From: Clostridia bacterium
GTDB lineage: Bacteria > Bacillota > Clostridia > Oscillospirales > Acutalibacteraceae
NCBI GenBank assembly: GCA_017454485.1
Contig: JAFTCX010000023.1
Span: 1-53,257 of the forward strand
DNA: 53,257 nt
Direction: 5' to 3'
Part shown: piece by piece, positions 2,460-27,177 of the stretch
How the letters are laid out: each line of letters opens with the position of its first letter
How positions within the stretch are numbered: the stretch's first letter is position 1
Translations under genes and position numbers: made by a program
Notes under the pieces: generated by a model
What the model was told of the DNA's origin: nothing
Databases searched by the model: none
Seen by the model: the letters and a program-made list of their open reading frames with translations, nothing else

Positions 2460-2682
2460 ACAAACTATCAATATACGCGGCGACGTCGCCGATCGTTTTC
2501 AGGTTTTCGATCGCTTCATCGGGAATGCTGATGCCGAAGGTGTCTTCCACGGCGGAGATCAGATCGACCAGGTCAATGCTGTCGGCGCCGATTTCATCCC
2601 AGGTGGTGTCCTCGGTCAAGTTGAGATCACTGAGTTCAAAGCGTTCGTTCACGATGGAGCATACTTTTTCGAGCGTGTCCAT
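2458..2682 (-). CDS. acpP: Acyl carrier protein
   Basis: This 74-residue acidic protein has the ACP signature DSIDLVD around residues 34-40. Ser35 is the expected 4'-phosphopantetheine attachment site, which carries acyl intermediates of fatty-acid synthesis in the cytosol. Length and helix pattern are typical. An AAGGAGG site sits about 7 nt before ATG 2682, and a TTGACA element upstream (2739-2744, minus) gives it its own promoter. It stands alone, not beside fab genes, so it may be a second or dedicated ACP. The stop codon lies inside the heptamer repeat array. Confidence 0.93.
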   Translation of the reverse strand: MDTLEKVCSIVNERFELSDLNLTEDTTWDEIGADSIDLVDLISAVEDTFGISIPDEAIENLKTIGDVAAYIDSL

Positions 2683-2715
2683 GCAAAAACCTCCTTCAGG
2701 GAAATACTATATCAC

Positions 2716-2744
2716 TATTATTCACAAAAGTATCCGTTTGTCAA
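2716..2744 (-). promoter_or_regulatory. Sigma-A-type promoter of acpP
   Basis: On the minus strand TTGACA (2744-2739) is followed after 17 bp by ATAATA, or after 18 bp by TAATAG. The -35 is consensus and the -10 is approximate. Confidence 0.5.
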
Positions 2745-2842
2745 TAGGAAAACCGAAAAATTTTATGCGGAACAAAAATTTTTAAGGCTGCATAATCGCT
2801 GCCGCACCGGCCAACACTTTGGGGTGAAAGGGAGTGCATCAA

Positions 2843-3457
2843 ATGAAACAGGAAGGACATCTGGCGGAGCTTGCCGCGCTGGCGGCGATGGCGCTCACGG
2901 TGCTGTTTTCCGTGCTGGGCTTTTCCGGAAACTGCAATGAGGTGCGCGGCGCAGTGCTGCGGCTGCATGTGATTGCAAATTCCGATTCCGCGGCCGATCA
3001 GGCGCTGAAATTGCAGGTGCGCGACGCAATTTTAAAGCAAAGCGGCGCGCTATTTGCCGCGTCGCAAACCAAGGCGCAGGCAGAACAAACGGTGCGCGAC
3101 GCGCTGCCGGCGCTGACAAAGACGGCGCAAGGGGTCGTCGCCGCAAAGGGCTTTCCTTATGCGGTGCACGCGGAGCTGACGCAAAGCGCGTTTCCGACAC
3201 GTACTTACGGCAATGTGACGCTGCCGGCCGGAACGTATGACGCGCTGCGGGTCACGCTCGGCAGCGGAAACGGGCACAACTGGTGGTGTGTGATGTTTCC
3301 GCCGCTGTGTCTGCCGGCGGCAAGCGAAACCGCCGCGCTGGAGGATGTGCTTTCGGGCGACGCGCTGGCGCTGGTTGAGGAAAACCCGAAGTTCGAGCTT
3401 CGCTTTTGGCTGGTGGAGCAGTGGGAAGCGCTGCAAAGGCGCTGGCGTGAAAAATAG
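2843..3457 (+). CDS. spoIIR: Stage II sporulation protein R (SpoIIR)
   Basis: SpoIIR is the secreted forespore signal that triggers SpoIIGA-mediated processing of pro-sigma-E in the mother cell. Seen here are an N-terminal hydrophobic segment (about 8-28), the family block LRLHVIANSDS (about 39-49) and the signature NWWCVMFPPLC (about 146-156). The length of 204 residues is right. ATG 2843 is preferred over GTG 2834 because the GAAAGGGAG site (about 2826) is correctly spaced only for the ATG. Its presence implies an endospore-forming organism or recent ancestor. Confidence 0.93.
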   Translation: MKQEGHLAELAALAAMALTVLFSVLGFSGNCNEVRGAVLRLHVIANSDSAADQALKLQVRDAILKQSGALFAASQTKAQAEQTVRDALPALTKTAQGVVAAKGFPYAVHAELTQSAFPTRTYGNVTLPAGTYDALRVTLGSGNGHNWWCVMFPPLCLPAASETAALEDVLSGDALALVEENPKFELRFWLVEQWEALQRRWREK

Positions 3458-22835: not shown

Positions 22836-22876
22836 GGAAGGCACCCAAAGCGGGCGCCTTCCATTTTCGTTTTTTT
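22836..22876 (+). terminator. Terminator of nucleoside transporter operon
   Basis: GGAAGGC (22836-22842) with inner CCC pairs with GGG and GCCTTCC (22856-22862), followed by ATTTTCGTTTTTTT. Confidence 0.9.
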
Positions 22877-22941: not shown

Positions 22942-23008
22942 GCCCGCCGCGTTTTACCTTCCACGGCGGGCTACCGACTACCGACTATCGACTATCGGCT
23001 AACGACTG
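22942..23008. repeat. GCCGTGG-type hairpin plus heptamer array
   Basis: The hairpin GCCCGCCG (22942-22949) with CGGCGGGC (22964-22971) is followed by heptamers CCGACTA, CCGACTA, TCGACTA, TCGGCTA, ACGACTG (22974-23008). The array overlaps the stop codon and last seven codons of the holin gene. Confidence 0.85.
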
Positions 23009-23293
23009 CGACAGCCGATACACTTCGCTTTCGATCAGCGCGGTCACTTCGTCAACGTCCACGACCAGCCCCTTGCTCAACAGGAGCGAGAGCACATAGT
23101 CCTTTTTCTGCTGACCGGTCTTTCTGCCGAAGAGCTGCTCTGCGGCGGCAACGCCAACGCGCACCCAGTCGCGCAGCCGCTCGGTCTGTTCGGCGCTCAG
23201 CCGCTTTTTTAAAACGGGCAGCACAAAGGCGGTGAGCACGGCGCTCAGCAGCGCGAGGGCGGCCTCAATGATCAGGGTCAAATCCAATTTCAT
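22985..23293 (-). CDS. Phage-type holin, LLH family
   Basis: 102 residues: an N-terminal membrane helix (about 6-28, LIIEAALALLSAVLTAFVLP) followed by a charged amphipathic region (RLRDWVRVGVAAAEQLFG and KKDYVLSLLL), the layout of phage LL-H holins. Holins open the membrane to release endolysin. GAAAGGAG precedes ATG 23293. The last residues (SLADSR) are encoded by a heptamer repeat array that appears to have replaced the natural end. It is the last gene of the lysis cassette. Confidence 0.85.
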   Translation of the reverse strand: MKLDLTLIIEAALALLSAVLTAFVLPVLKKRLSAEQTERLRDWVRVGVAAAEQLFGRKTGQQKKDYVLSLLLSKGLVVDVDEVTALIESEVYRLSQSLADSR

Positions 23294-23306
23294 CGTAGTT
23301 CTCCTT

Positions 23307-23567
23307 TCAACTGACCGGCCGGCAGCCGGTCTCTTTTCGCTCCAGTGCGTCCATTCGTCGGGACGCGGCGGTCAGCTTTTCGTCCTGCAGCTTGGTTTGC
23401 GTTTCCAGCACACAGGTGCGCTCGGCGAGTACGGCGAGGGCCTCAACCTTTTTTTCCAACTGCTCAATGCGGTAGGCGGTCAGCCTGTTTGCGGTCAAAA
23501 TGCCGGCAAAGGTGCCGCTGAGGGTGCCGAGCAGGGAAATGAGCGCCACAAGAATGGTGTCGTTCAT
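23307..23567 (-). CDS. XhlA-like membrane/coiled-coil phage lysis protein
   Basis: 86 residues from ATG 23567: an N-terminal membrane helix (about 5-25, VALISLLGTLSGTFAGI), then a heptad-patterned coiled coil (YRIEQLEKKVEALAVL and onward) to a charged tail. Proteins of this layout sit beside LLH holins in Clostridia phages. It starts 4 bp after the endolysin stop with only a weak GGATG-like site, so coupling is likely. Longer upstream starts overlap the endolysin gene and are rejected. Confidence 0.75.
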   Translation of the reverse strand: MNDTILVALISLLGTLSGTFAGILTANRLTAYRIEQLEKKVEALAVLAERTCVLETQTKLQDEKLTAASRRMDALERKETGCRPVS

Positions 23568-23571
23568 TGCG

Positions 23572-24408
23572 TCACATCCGTTCACAATAATCCAGACACA
23601 CCCAGCCGCTCGGCGTCTTGCCCCAGTTGTCCCTGACTTGCAAAACCGTGAAGCAAAGAGCGCGGCAATAGCCGTCCACCGGGCGTCCGGCAAGGCGCAG
23701 GATCTTGCGCTGCGCGTCTGCGCTCAAAAGCGGAAAGGTCAGCTTGCCGTGCAGCAGTCCGGGACCGGAGCGCACGTTGAGGATGTCGGCGTCGCTGACA
23801 CGGAACACGCCGGGCGCAAACACGCGTTTTCCGCCCTTTGCGGTCGGCAGGGTGCGAAAGCGCAGGTCCTTGCTGTCTTTGACCGTTGTGAACGTCGGGT
23901 CAAGAAAGAACAGCTCTTCCGGCTTGCAGGCGCCGCCGGTGCAGGTCAGCACCCATTTGCGTTTGCTGTTTTGCCGCCAGCCGGTGCCGGTGACTCTGCC
24001 TTTGCCGGCGGAAAGGTGGATATGGTTGCCGACGCCGCCGTCGCTGCCCTCGTGACAGATGATGTCGCCGCGGGAAAACGTCTTTCCGAGCGCGAGCGCG
24101 GAAAGATCGGCGTCGTCCGGGTGCGTCAAAAGCGCGCAGAAATAATCGCGCGTGCCGTCGGCGAAATCGACCTTTTCGGCCGACTGCAAAAACAGCGTGT
24201 TGACGCCTTTGCCGCCAACGCCGTAAACGCGGAACACCTTCACGCTGTTGCACGGGCAATAGATTGCATCCCTGCCGCCGTCCTTGCCGCCGTCGTCAAT
24301 GGGGTAGTCCTTCGGCGTGCCGGTCGTGTGCGGCAAATGCGACACGGTGCCGGTATAGCTTTGGGTGATGCGCATGGTTTTGAGCGGATAGGTCAGATAG
24401 TTGTCCAT
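23572..24408 (-). CDS. Phage-type endolysin: divergent M23 peptidase plus SH3 domain
   Basis: 278 residues from ATG 24408 (GAAAGAAGG upstream). The N-terminal two-thirds resembles an M23-like metallopeptidase: an N-terminal Q-S-YTG-TVSHLPHTTGTPKDYPID block, then a central LLTH and the GNHIHLSAG (HxH) motif; zinc ligands are plausible but divergent. The C-terminal domain (about 205-278, RVSDADILNVRSGPG...WVCLDYCERM) is a bacterial SH3 wall-binding domain. The role is peptidoglycan degradation in lysis. It overlaps the upstream 42-codon gene by 16 nt. Confidence 0.78.
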   Translation of the reverse strand: MDNYLTYPLKTMRITQSYTGTVSHLPHTTGTPKDYPIDDGGKDGGRDAIYCPCNSVKVFRVYGVGGKGVNTLFLQSAEKVDFADGTRDYFCALLTHPDDADLSALALGKTFSRGDIICHEGSDGGVGNHIHLSAGKGRVTGTGWRQNSKRKWVLTCTGGACKPEELFFLDPTFTTVKDSKDLRFRTLPTAKGGKRVFAPGVFRVSDADILNVRSGPGLLHGKLTFPLLSADAQRKILRLAGRPVDGYCRALCFTVLQVRDNWGKTPSGWVCLDYCERM

Positions 24409-24521
24409 AAAAAGCCTTCTTTCTGCAGCTGAAGCAGCACCCACCACACGGGTAAGAGCACATGAAAGCAAAACGCGTTGCCAAGCGTGAACAGCAGTGT
24501 GCGAAGCAAAACGCCGCTCAT
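24393..24521 (-). CDS. 42-residue single-pass membrane protein in lysis cassette
   Basis: ATG 24521 overlaps the upstream gene stop as ATGA and has GAGGAGG 7 nt upstream. The frame ends within the start region of the endolysin gene. The peptide (start MSGVLLRTLLFTLG, then HVLLPVWWVLLQL) is one strongly hydrophobic Trp-containing helix with charged ends. The coupling on both sides makes it credible despite its size. It might be an extra pinholin or antiholin; no family is recognised. Confidence 0.65.
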   Translation of the reverse strand: MSGVLLRTLLFTLGNAFCFHVLLPVWWVLLQLQKEGFLWTTI

Positions 24522-24991
24522 GTGCCCGCCTCCTCGTTTCGCCAAATCACATAAAAATAAACGCCGACGATCGAGTAAGCCGAGGTGGCCTGCAAGGTGA
24601 CGCTGTTTGTGCCGAGGGTGACGATACTGCTTGTGATGTTGGAAATGTAGCCGCTGGAGTTGTTGGTATAGGTGCCGTAGGCAGAGGCGGTGGTGTAACG
24701 CGGATTGGAAACGGCGCTGACCAGCGCGCCCTTGGTGGTGGAGCGGCGAATGAGAAACACCGCCGCGTCGGTCGGCGTGAACGGCAGATCGCCGATGGTA
24801 AAGCTCGATGTGCTTTCCACGTTTTGTGCGCCGCAAACGAACGGAACGCCGCCGCCGGAACCGCCGGACAATCCTTCGATGGCGGAGATGAAGTCCGCCG
24901 GAAACGTCAGGGGAGCGCTGCTGTCTGCGGCGGTGCGGATCGCATCTGCCACAGCGGTCAGCGCGCTTTCTTCCACTTTGCGCAGTGCCAT
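24518..24991 (-). CDS. Phage tail fibre/appendage-like protein
   Basis: 157 residues. The N-terminus MALRKVEESALTAVADAIRT...PLTFPADFISAIEGL is a pattern common in Clostridia phage tail appendage proteins. A Gly-rich linker (SGGSGGG, about 43-49) and a beta-rich Ser/Thr/Tyr domain (FTIGDLPFTPTDAAVFLI onward) follow. It likely helps host binding or is structural. The start overlaps the previous stop (TGATG). Confidence 0.6.
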   Translation of the reverse strand: MALRKVEESALTAVADAIRTAADSSAPLTFPADFISAIEGLSGGSGGGVPFVCGAQNVESTSSFTIGDLPFTPTDAAVFLIRRSTTKGALVSAVSNPRYTTASAYGTYTNNSSGYISNITSSIVTLGTNSVTLQATSAYSIVGVYFYVIWRNEEAGT

Positions 24992-25725
24992 CAGTATGCG
25001 CCTCCTTCCGCAGCGGGCAGCATGGCGTAGACGCTTTGCACAATGCCGTCAAGCTGCGCCTGTGTGAAATCCGCAAAGGTGAACGGATCGCCTTTGTCGC
25101 CTTTTGCGCCCTTGAGCGCGGCGAGCTGATCGGGTGTAAAATCGTTAAAGGTGAACGCGTCGCCCTTGGCGCCTTTGACAAGCCCGCAGGAAACGGTGCT
25201 GCCGTCGGTCAGCGTCAGTGAGAGCAGTCCGGCGGCGTCCACGGCGGCGCTTTGCACGGAAACGCCGTCTGCAACGGTGAAGCTGTCTGCAGTGCCGTCA
25301 GTGTAGGCGGCGGTCACCGTGTTGCCGCTGCGTGTGATGGAATCGATTTGGCGCAGCCTTGCGGCGTTGAGCAGGGCAACGAGCTGCTCATACTGTGTGG
25401 GCGTTAGCTCGTCGAGCGGTGCGGCGTCGCTGTCGGCAACCGAAGAGATGCAGCCGATCTCCGTTGCGGTGGAAGCGAGGGTGTCGCAGAACACGCCGAC
25501 GAACAGGTGGGCGCACACCGGAATGCGCGGCAGCGCGACGCTTGTGCCGGTGAAGGTGAGATCGAGCCGCTGATCGTCAAAGATCAGCCGCGCGGTTTTG
25601 ACGGAAATGTTGTCCCACGCGCTGTCAAATGTAAACGAAAGCATATAGTCGCTGTTCGACGAGATGACATAGTGCCGGGCGCAGGACGCAACCTTTCCGG
25701 CAATCTGAATGGGGATGGTCGTCAT
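24991..25725 (-). CDS. Phage baseplate/tail appendage protein with short collagen-like motif
   Basis: 244 residues from ATG 25725, with AAGGAGG upstream. The N-terminal domain (about 1-100: YVISSNSDYMLSFTFDSAWD, VCAHLFVGVFC) resembles the tail-associated N-terminal domain frequent in Clostridia phages. A beta-rich middle with DGVSVQSAAVDAAGLLSLTL follows. The C-terminus has two GAKGD-type repeats, each followed by a FTFxDFT helix segment. It is the first gene of the cassette, about 80 nt from a promoter carrying two LexA-type boxes. Confidence 0.65.
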   Translation of the reverse strand: MTTIPIQIAGKVASCARHYVISSNSDYMLSFTFDSAWDNISVKTARLIFDDQRLDLTFTGTSVALPRIPVCAHLFVGVFCDTLASTATEIGCISSVADSDAAPLDELTPTQYEQLVALLNAARLRQIDSITRSGNTVTAAYTDGTADSFTVADGVSVQSAAVDAAGLLSLTLTDGSTVSCGLVKGAKGDAFTFNDFTPDQLAALKGAKGDKGDPFTFADFTQAQLDGIVQSVYAMLPAAEGGAY

Positions 25726-25813
25726 GAAAGTCCTCCTTGGTTTTGAAATAAAAAGAAAAAACATACACGGCGGGGCCGGAAGATCTGCGCGGTCTTCCCC
25801 GTGTACATCTCCT

Positions 25814-25863
25814 ATTTTAGAACAAAAGTTCGCATTTGTCAATCAAAAATAGAACTTTTGTTC
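25814..25863 (-). promoter_or_regulatory. Cassette promoter with two LexA/SOS-type operator boxes
   Basis: Minus-strand promoter TTGACA (25842-25837), 17 bp, TAAAAT (25819-25814). Two inverted repeats match GAAC-N4-GTTC. Box 1 (25820-25831) fills the spacer between -10 and -35. Box 2 (25852-25863) lies 9 bp beyond the -35. Both have the flanking C/G seen in the Gram-positive LexA consensus CGAAC-N4-GTTCG on one side. The geometry is that of a repressed SOS promoter; LexA binding is inferred. Confidence 0.8.
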
Positions 25864-25905: not shown

Positions 25906-25934
25906 TTGACAAAAACGACAAAATGCGCTATAAT
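25906..25934 (+). promoter_or_regulatory. Perfect consensus promoter of the 3D-domain gene
   Basis: TTGACA (25906-25911), 17 bp, TATAAT (25929-25934). It lies 32 bp before the start of the 3D-domain gene and is divergent from the SOS-box promoter. Confidence 0.9.
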
Positions 25935-25965
25935 AATCTTACGATGAATCAAGAAGGGAGAGACC

Positions 25966-27177
25966 GTGATGCGCGCGCAGGCAGAAGCGAAAAAACCAAA
26001 GCGGCCGCGAAAAATCGCAGTGACCGCGCTGCTTTGCGTTGCCGCTGTCCTTGCGGTCGCCGGCGTATGCGCTGCGTTCGGTGTGCTGCCGCATGTGACA
26101 GAGGTTGTTTGCGACGGCGAAAGCAAAACGGTGTTCTCTTTGACAAACGACCCGCAGGCGATCGTTGCAAAGGCAAATGTGACGCTCGGCGATTTTGACA
26201 AGATCAACCTCGACGGCTTTGATGAAGCGGAATGGAAAAACAGCCTTGCGGTGGAACGCCGCAGCGCCGCAAATCCGGCCGCGCCGCTGGTATCGTTTGT
26301 AACATCCGACCGCCTGCAAACGGTTGCCAAAGCGCTCGCCGAACAGGGCAGAGCGCTTCGCCTGCAGCAGACGGTCAAGGTCCGGCTTTTGTGCGACGGC
26401 AAAAAGCAGACGGTCAAAACCAGCGGCACCGTGGCGGATGCGCTTCACGCGGCAAAGATCACGCTCGGCGAAAACGATGCGGTCAACCATCCGCTTTCCG
26501 CTGCGCTGGAGGACGGGATGTCCATCCGGGTGCAGCGTGTGCGCTACCGCGAAGCGACAAAGAAAAAGGCGATCCCGTTCACCACCGAGGAGCTGCCGAA
26601 CGACACGCTGTATGTCGGTGAAACGCAGCTTTTGCAGGAAGGGCAGGCCGGGGAGCGCACGGTTTACTATCTTGAAAAAACCGTGGACGGCGAACCTGAA
26701 GGCCGGCTGAAGATCGGTGAATCGGTCACGAAGGAGCCGCTGCCGGAGCTGCTGTTCATCGGCACAAAGACCGGGCTGATCCCGCAGGGGAGCGTGGGTG
26801 TGAGCGGGCTTGCCGACCGTGCGGCGATCTCGGAGCTGCCGGCAACGATTGACATCGCCGTTGATGTTTACGGCAAACCCGTCAACTATACAAAGCTGAT
26901 CGTCGGCGAAGCGACCGCCTACAGCGGCGGCGGTGTGACCTCAACCGGAAAAAGCGCCATGCCCGGCCGCGTTGCCGTGGACCCGCGCGAGATCCCCTAC
27001 GGCTCAAAGCTGTTCATCGTCTCCACCGACGGCAACTACATTTACGGCTATGCCGAAGCCGCAGACACCGGCGGATTTATCCATAACAGCGATACGGCGG
27101 TCGATCTGTATATGCACCGCGAAAGCGACTGCGAGGCATTCGGCAGACGCAATGTGGAAATTTATGTTTTGGAATAA
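25966..27177 (+). CDS. YabE-like G5/3D-domain cell-wall protein
   Basis: 403 residues from GTG 25966 (ATG 25969 also possible; GAAGGGAG upstream). A basic cytosolic start and a membrane helix (about 16-38) are followed by two DUF348-like units (about 45-105 and 133-190), a G5-like domain (about 193-265) and a C-terminal 3D domain. The 3D domain has the Asp residues in VAVDPREIPYG, EAADTGG and TAVDLYM. The family comprises Rpf-like wall-lytic enzymes (YabE, YocH 3D fold). It faces the outside of the membrane and is divergently transcribed from the lysis cassette. Confidence 0.88.
   Translation: MMRAQAEAKKPKRPRKIAVTALLCVAAVLAVAGVCAAFGVLPHVTEVVCDGESKTVFSLTNDPQAIVAKANVTLGDFDKINLDGFDEAEWKNSLAVERRSAANPAAPLVSFVTSDRLQTVAKALAEQGRALRLQQTVKVRLLCDGKKQTVKTSGTVADALHAAKITLGENDAVNHPLSAALEDGMSIRVQRVRYREATKKKAIPFTTEELPNDTLYVGETQLLQEGQAGERTVYYLEKTVDGEPEGRLKIGESVTKEPLPELLFIGTKTGLIPQGSVGVSGLADRAAISELPATIDIAVDVYGKPVNYTKLIVGEATAYSGGGVTSTGKSAMPGRVAVDPREIPYGSKLFIVSTDGNYIYGYAEAADTGGFIHNSDTAVDLYMHRESDCEAFGRRNVEIYVLE

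Follow-up and report, generated by a model that had tools for sequence, protein, structure and literature searches.

A candidate LexA-controlled lysis operon of phage origin, without adjoining phage genes, in a genome of gut Oscillospiraceae

We present here a six-gene operon of phage-type lysis genes in a 53,257-nucleotide stretch of Clostridia DNA (contig JAFTCX010000023.1 of GenBank assembly GCA_017454485.1; "the window" below is this whole stretch). The window is contig C81 of the genome designated G000, which comprises 2.42 Mb in 90 contigs and is 87% complete. The operon consists of six minus-strand open reading frames (ORFs) running from 25725 to 22985, with ends that overlap or nearly abut (Table 1). 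An earlier annotation made from the sequence letters (the original prediction) had proposed six coupled minus-strand genes behind a promoter of the SOS type, and ORF reading confirmed both the genes and their coordinates. The locus was compared across 34 genomes of its genus, G000 included. The analysis places the genus among the gut Oscillospiraceae/Ruminococcaceae, and on our best reading the operon is now chromosomal there.

The P0004 product is a predicted endolysin with an M23-like peptidase domain. Its family profile matches PDB entry 3csq, "Morphogenesis protein 1" (E = 2.8e-6), which we take to be phi29 gp13, carrying an M23 endopeptidase domain, and residues H24, D38, H96, H129, and H131 are invariant across 26 aligned sequences; the assignment draws on this homology and on the pattern of metal ligands. 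No Pfam family matched P0004, M23 included, and its PHROG matches are weak (best 1.6e-6, function unknown in PHROG; an amidase family at 9e-4). The C terminus was read as SH3-like. P0006 matches the LLH holin family PF09682 (5.7e-10; 39.9 bits vs a cut-off of 24.9) and phrog_6918 (7.4e-21), as had been predicted. The XhlA-like protein proposed alongside it was not supported by the family searches: P0005 matches phrog_1863 (function unknown in PHROG) and not Pfam XhlA at E values up to 1, so that "XhlA-like" is a loose label for a membrane segment followed by a likely coiled coil. Two tail-appendage proteins had also been proposed, one of which stood. In P0001, the middle and the collagen-like part match tail-fibre PHROGs (best phrog_6049, 3.9e-10), and residues 1 to 161 share 33% identity with a phage record that lacks annotation and comes from human faeces; a PDB profile search with P0001 gave no convincing match. 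Since the family searches for P0002 came back empty (no Pfam or PHROG match better than E = 0.18), its label as the second such protein derives from its position. In G008 and G025 (leaders L081 and L142), a short hydrophobic ORF directly 5′ of the endolysin gene was read as standing in the place of P0003.

Table 1. Coordinates of the operon, its control region, and other features (positions in the window unless a contig or locus is named)
Feature	Coordinates	Strand	Description
P0001	24991..25725	minus	244 aa (amino acids); tail-fibre-like, short collagen-like repeats
P0002	24518..24991	minus	157 aa; no family match; 1-nt overlap with P0001
P0003	24393..24521	minus	42-aa hydrophobic peptide; 4-nt overlap with P0002
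P0004	23572..24408	minus	278 aa; putative endolysin; 16-nt overlap with P0003
P0005	23307..23567	minus	86 aa; one membrane segment; 4-nt gap after P0004
P0006	22985..23293	minus	102 aa; LLH-family holin; 13-nt gap after P0005
Upstream LexA-type box	25852..25863		GAACAAAAGTTC (minus-strand reading); ends 9 nt before the -35 hexamer
-35 hexamer	25837..25842	minus	TTGACA; sequence reading
Second LexA-type box	25820..25831		GAACTTTTGTTC; within the -35/-10 spacer; sequence reading
-10 hexamer	25814..25819	minus	TAAAAT; sequence reading
Leader, candidate attenuator	25750..25806	minus	hairpin (25806-25763), then T-rich run; comparison with relatives
Terminator-like hairpin	22836..22862	minus	12 pairs, 3′ of the operon; sequence reading
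G5/3D-domain gene	25906..27177 (with promoter)		divergent from the operon
Promoter of the G5/3D gene	25906..25934		perfect sigma-70 promoter
Sigma-r4/HTH gene L066 (G000:C38)	3201..2605	minus	sigma-70 region 4 and helix-turn-helix (HTH)
Homolog L262	9799..9200	minus	
Homolog L075	4036..3392	minus	

The cassette is an orphan within its contig, amid bacterial genes, with flanks of about 27 kb and 23 kb. Head, tail, portal, terminase, and integrase families are absent from the matches listed for the 41 other window ORFs of at least about 100 amino acids (E values up to 1e-10; the best 25 of 29 PHROG and 25 of 57 Pfam families), in agreement with the predicted lack of adjoining prophage genes. One flank begins with the divergent G5/3D-domain gene, which has its own promoter and shares the intergenic region with the operon; the other holds BMP-type ABC transporter genes. 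In 14 of 44 lysis loci, a member of the G5/3D family is found no more than 6 kb from the endolysin gene.

An isolated lysis and fibre cassette might serve in trans a phage-like particle (a tailocin, gene transfer agent, or defective prophage) whose genes lie at another chromosomal site. Gene transfer agents can have their lysis genes outside the main cluster, P0001 is retained beside the lysis genes with a ratio of nonsynonymous to synonymous substitution rates (dN/dS) of 0.13 to 0.22, some relatives have what were read as prophage loci with related endolysins, and endolysin L070 of G030 shares a contig with a tape-measure gene. However, the tape-measure family PF10145, the one structural family searched, was found in 3 of the 34 genomes (2 over the cut-off) and in none of G000, G019, and G004, the latter two being the sister genomes of G000. 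We consider such a helper role unlikely.

A single promoter, TTGACA-N17-TAAAAT, precedes the operon and matches 11 of 12 consensus positions. The predicted GAAC-N4-GTTC boxes were located in its spacer and upstream of its -35 hexamer, 32 bp apart. Both sisters likewise have two boxes, and among 16 aligned box-bearing promoters the spacer box occurs only in these three. The core is intact in both window boxes, with imperfect central four and outer bases; each box joins one GAACA half to one GAACT half, and the central four are asymmetric. It is placement, not number, that makes the boxes noteworthy: two sites per 53 kb are not unusual (1.26 expected; at least two in 34 of 100 shuffles), and at 17 sites per 2.42 Mb a pair within a single 60-bp promoter would be an event of about 1e-7, by arithmetic that assumes independence. 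The palindrome is scarce in G000 as a whole (17 occurrences vs 62 for the reversed pattern). The Firmicutes LexA consensus appears as CGAACRnRYGTTYC in the consulted part of its source (PMC2248561). The window operator is of this type, with its core intact and a position that overlaps and flanks the promoter.

The same type of operator stands before recA and lexA in the genus. With at most one mismatch to GAAC-N4-GTTC, a box was found at recA in 30 of 30 loci read (GAACATTTGTAC or a variant), lying 28 to 40 bp before the start in 29 of them, and the recA gene of the window's own genome carries GAACATTTGTAC. At lexA, a box lies within 350 bp upstream in 21 of 30 loci, nine of which carry two; this count is less strict than that for recA, because chance alone would place a box in about 4 to 5 of 30 regions of 410 bp (by arithmetic, no shuffles). 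A LexA gene was found in 32 of the 34 genomes, including both nearest relatives of the window. The 12-mer GAATATTTGTTC, which is the spacer box of the G004 cassette, also precedes lexA in sister G019. In G030, a single gene, encoding an M23 peptidase, separates lexA from the cassette (L145, G030:C74, 6472-10790). A gene with sigma-70 region 4 and HTH domains has LexA-type boxes in its promoter in three genomes, that of the window among them, and may possibly be a second SOS-controlled regulator.

Across the 16 aligned cassette promoters, the box ends 8 to 10 nt before the -35 hexamer (exactly 9 nt in 13), the spacer is 17 nt, and in 15 of them the -10 hexamer reads TATAAT or TAAAAT, the remaining one having TAGAAT. 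On a matrix derived from 61 recA/lexA sites, cassette boxes reach 19.4 to 22.9 in 13 relatives and 11.5 to 14.3 in the window, G019, and G004; the best scores in other cassettes are below 5, except for 9.9 at position -400 (G018) and 8.2 (the second G025 copy). When all 34 genomes were searched for box-N7-12-TTGACA, 21 matches turned up, spread over 17 genomes, vs 10 for the reversed control. Cassette promoters account for 17 of the 21, one per genome across 17 genomes; the other four comprise one overlapping the cassette site (G008), one at the sigma-r4/HTH gene (G004), and two (G016 and G033) taken as chance. Two further genomes, G024 and G007, have a cassette box with one core mismatch. Chance occurrence of the boxes was ruled out by the 8-to-10-nt geometry in 16 cassettes together with the genus-wide search.

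Altogether, 19 of 34 genomes (G000, G001, G004, G007 to G010, G012, G013, G016, G019, G021, G024 to G028, G030, and G033) have a lysis cassette with a box 8 to 10 nt before TTGACA and away from other phage genes, a tally of the 16 aligned promoters plus 3 that were found by pattern and judged by eye. The cassette of G021 is apparently split between two contig ends (L260 and L072). The SOS-type architecture of the original prediction appears sound, since the operator is of the type seen at recA and lexA in the genus and holds a conserved position in these 19 promoters. In G002 the lysis genes are present and the box is absent; neither a P0004-type endolysin nor the box pattern was found in G023 and G029.

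The promoter switch appears to be retained where the endolysin type differs. G027 and G033 lack P0004, and behind the same promoter stands an endolysin of M15 and SH3 domains (PF08291, 1.7e-14 and 1.2e-11; phrog_894, endolysin). Their cassettes also include a long first protein of 354 and 416 amino acids, without a named family and read as fibre- or baseplate-like, a 69-amino-acid protein without a family match, read as holin-like, and a P0005 homolog with 71% and 68% identity to its nearest relative. An ispE-like gene, as read, lies near the G033 cassette, and a GH3 homolog about 7 kb off.

The leader between promoter and first gene may act as an attenuator, which comparison with relatives makes a reasonable guess. 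CCGC flanked by a stem occurs within the first 30 nt of 19 of 27 leaders (taken from the -10 hexamer to the first gene), and the stem beats flank shuffles at p < 0.05 in 17 of these 19, values that are uncorrected and include some near-copies. Stem pairs vary yet still pair; this covariation was counted by script, without a covariance model, because MAFFT misaligned the hairpin loops. A terminator-like hairpin is present in 19 of 30 leaders vs 3.9 expected from shuffles. In several leaders (L045, L053, L074, L145, and L146, for example) a 5′ CCGC-loop hairpin is found, often followed by a terminator-like hairpin before the ribosome site. A pattern of promoter plus hairpin gave 16 matches, all of them cassette promoters, in 1.8 Mb of DNA enriched for cassette loci. 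A looser pattern of promoter plus CCGC without the stem was rejected as lacking specificity for cassettes (75 matches, spread over 28 of 34 genomes, vs 1 for the reversed control). An Rfam scan of the window leader returned nothing above threshold (SR6_antitoxin, 25.8 bits vs a gathering score of 55).

With dN/dS below 1 for all six genes, neighbours held in common, endolysin distances that follow those of RecA, and viral and chromosomal rows mixed at weak nodes of the endolysin tree, the cassette was judged to be maintained by selection and in part inherited, and some exchange is likely. Among the window, G019, and G004, dN/dS is 0.04 to 0.22 for P0001 and P0003 to P0006 and 0.12 to 0.50 for P0002, given as plain ratios with no significance test; the flanking genes gave 0.24 to 0.27 (G5/3D) and 0.03 to 0.04 (BMP permease). 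At least one of eight neighbour families lies within 6 kb in 20 of 44 lysis loci, and within the genus 30 of the 34 genomes have a P0004-type endolysin, vs 0 of 64 sampled outside it. Distances between endolysins correlate with those between RecA proteins (rho = 0.40; 1 of 2,000 permutations) in 18 genomes; prophage-like rows, a further nine that were divergent, and genomes whose recA is incomplete or missing were left out of this test. A decaying prophage remnant without present function would account for the phage-like character of the recognisable parts and for the relatives of the endolysin on 17 viral contigs, but it sits poorly with intact ORFs, low dN/dS, a promoter geometry fixed across diverged species, a neighbourhood shared in those 20 loci, and an endolysin present in most of the genus; of all the explanations considered here, we give it the least credence.

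A wider scan for the endolysin found 41 loci, many in metagenome-assembled genomes (MAGs) of ruminant-gut Clostridia, others in Bacilli and other MAGs, where the endolysin alone was recognised, together with 17 viral contigs. None of the 17 viral loci has a box scoring above 15 within 400 bp upstream of the endolysin, and three have such boxes elsewhere; the contrast with chromosomal loci is weak because several of the viral loci have little DNA upstream and the late promoters of phages are far off. In a family sample of 300 genomes, the full promoter pattern occurred in 3, two of which (G009 and G030) belong to the genus; at the third (G123), no lysis gene was seen by eye within 3 kb. A plasmid search gave no endolysin match. 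Among phage records, the endolysin has 30% identity to two records of one microvirus, and the holin 41% to one record. The microvirus, from moose faeces (MG641182.1, 2487-2993), encodes a relative 30% identical to the peptidase domain of the endolysin.

Several known systems resemble the operon, as far as the consulted parts of the published accounts describe them. Explosive lysis in Pseudomonas aeruginosa requires the pyocin endolysin Lys and not the pyocin structural genes, and there too a phage-derived endolysin with a holin is induced through SOS and RecA (PMC4834629). The pyocin genes, however, sit in a tailocin cluster, whereas the window operon has no structural genes within 53 kb, has its LexA-type operator directly at the lysis promoter, and belongs to a Clostridia host. 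The XhlA-XhlB-XlyA module of PBSX in Bacillus subtilis, which is induced by DNA damage and is a source of membrane vesicles, shares a Gram-positive host and a holin and endolysin with an accessory small membrane protein (PMC5589764). PBSX is nevertheless a defective prophage with a head and contractile tail, neither of which adjoins the window operon, and the latter differs in the lack of an XhlA match for P0005 and in its LLH-family holin. The operon was therefore placed outside both systems, on the grounds of no structural genes in the contig, a LexA-type operator on the lysis promoter, and a different holin family. It would work like pyocin-Lys explosive lysis and PBSX vesiculation. The DLP12 lysis module of Escherichia coli K12 is likewise a holin and endolysin operon, domesticated by the host according to its authors, although the abstract mentions no fibre gene (PMC7918800). 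Among the titles and opening lines of abstracts listed from the open-access literature, no LexA-controlled lysis operon without phage genes was described.

Type 10 secretion systems, in the accounts consulted, also put a phage-type lysis cassette to the use of a cell without a phage. The operon could accordingly be a controlled, non-lytic or subpopulation export device that releases a specific protein, perhaps P0001, whose fibre-like gene stands first. Type 10 systems have toxin or chitinase cargo, whereas Pfam and PHROG searches recognised no enzyme or toxin cargo in the window operon; its neighbour genes vary between genomes, and a LexA-type switch would fit a terminal decision better than routine export. 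We regard an export role as distinctly unlikely.

At a probability of roughly 0.6, we favour reading the six genes as a lysis operon of phage origin that has been domesticated, is repressed by LexA, serves lysis after DNA damage, and is part of the host gene set in the genus. LexA dimers on the two boxes would block RNA polymerase. DNA damage would produce RecA filaments, LexA would cleave itself, and the operon would be derepressed; the transcript may then need to pass the leader hairpin or terminator, a second brake. The holin would open the membrane and the M23-like endolysin would cut the wall, so that the cell would lyse without making phage, and kin may benefit from released DNA, enzymes, or vesicles. 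Damage, RecA, LexA cleavage, derepression, holin, endolysin, and lysis are each standard steps for such parts; from the parts we infer LexA binding, induction, lysis, and benefit to kin in this case. The same trigger and parts would suit an abortive-infection module, in which DNA-damaging phage attack raises the SOS response and the host dies before the phage matures. That would leave the fibre-like gene unexplained, and no defence gene was noticed among the few neighbours scanned, with no PADLOC search made; we give abortive infection very little weight.

Several observations weigh against a host-owned, LexA-repressed lysis operon. The window boxes score 13.2 on the recA/lexA matrix vs 19.4 or more in the 13 relatives. 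A gene for LexA was not found in the window's assembly or in G006, although the site is present at the recA gene of the window's genome; formally, the original prediction had named the lack of LexA as grounds for refutation, but for the window the absence was read as an assembly gap because the assembly is 87% complete and nearly all of the genus has LexA. In the survey of relatives, which the original prediction had also called for, 19 genomes have a box-bearing cassette, but 12 genomes (G003, G005, G006, G011, G014, G015, G017, G018, G020, G022, G031, and G032) have a cassette without a recognisable box, and the orphan status of those in G003 and G018 is uncertain because their contigs are under 4 kb. 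In 24 genomes, the holin (rho = 0.24; 9 of 2,000 permutations) and P0005 (rho = 0.21; 45 of 2,000) track RecA weakly. The endolysin tree requires four changes of box label, of which well-supported branches force only one, and viral and chromosomal rows are intermixed at its weak deep nodes; given this mixture, parts may have been exchanged with phages. The window leader alone is not significant (z-score of the fold, -0.38, equalled or bettered by 63 of 200 shuffles), nor did the script count it as terminator-like. Finally, simple lysis would have no use for a fibre-like gene. Taken as a whole, the interpretation in the original prediction is partly supported.

A fuller version of the favoured reading gives the fibre-like protein a part. 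The cassette would be an ancestral programmed-lysis operon of a gut Oscillospiraceae genus, wired to LexA and to a leader brake formed by the CCGC-loop 5′ hairpin and the terminator-like hairpin; its promoter would have been kept while the endolysin type and, as read, the holin were swapped, and the tail-fibre-like protein would be produced alongside the lysins and act extracellularly once the cell has lysed. We put this version forward tentatively, as a possibility with the odds somewhat against it. If the favoured reading is true, the SOS system of a gut genus would have a built-in lysis arm without a virus, which would offer an explanation for lysis and vesicles in the gut after DNA damage in the absence of phage; phage-derived lysis as a host trait would become directly testable, and the promoter-leader unit of LexA box, 5′ hairpin, and terminator-like hairpin would give a handle for seeking similar cassettes elsewhere.

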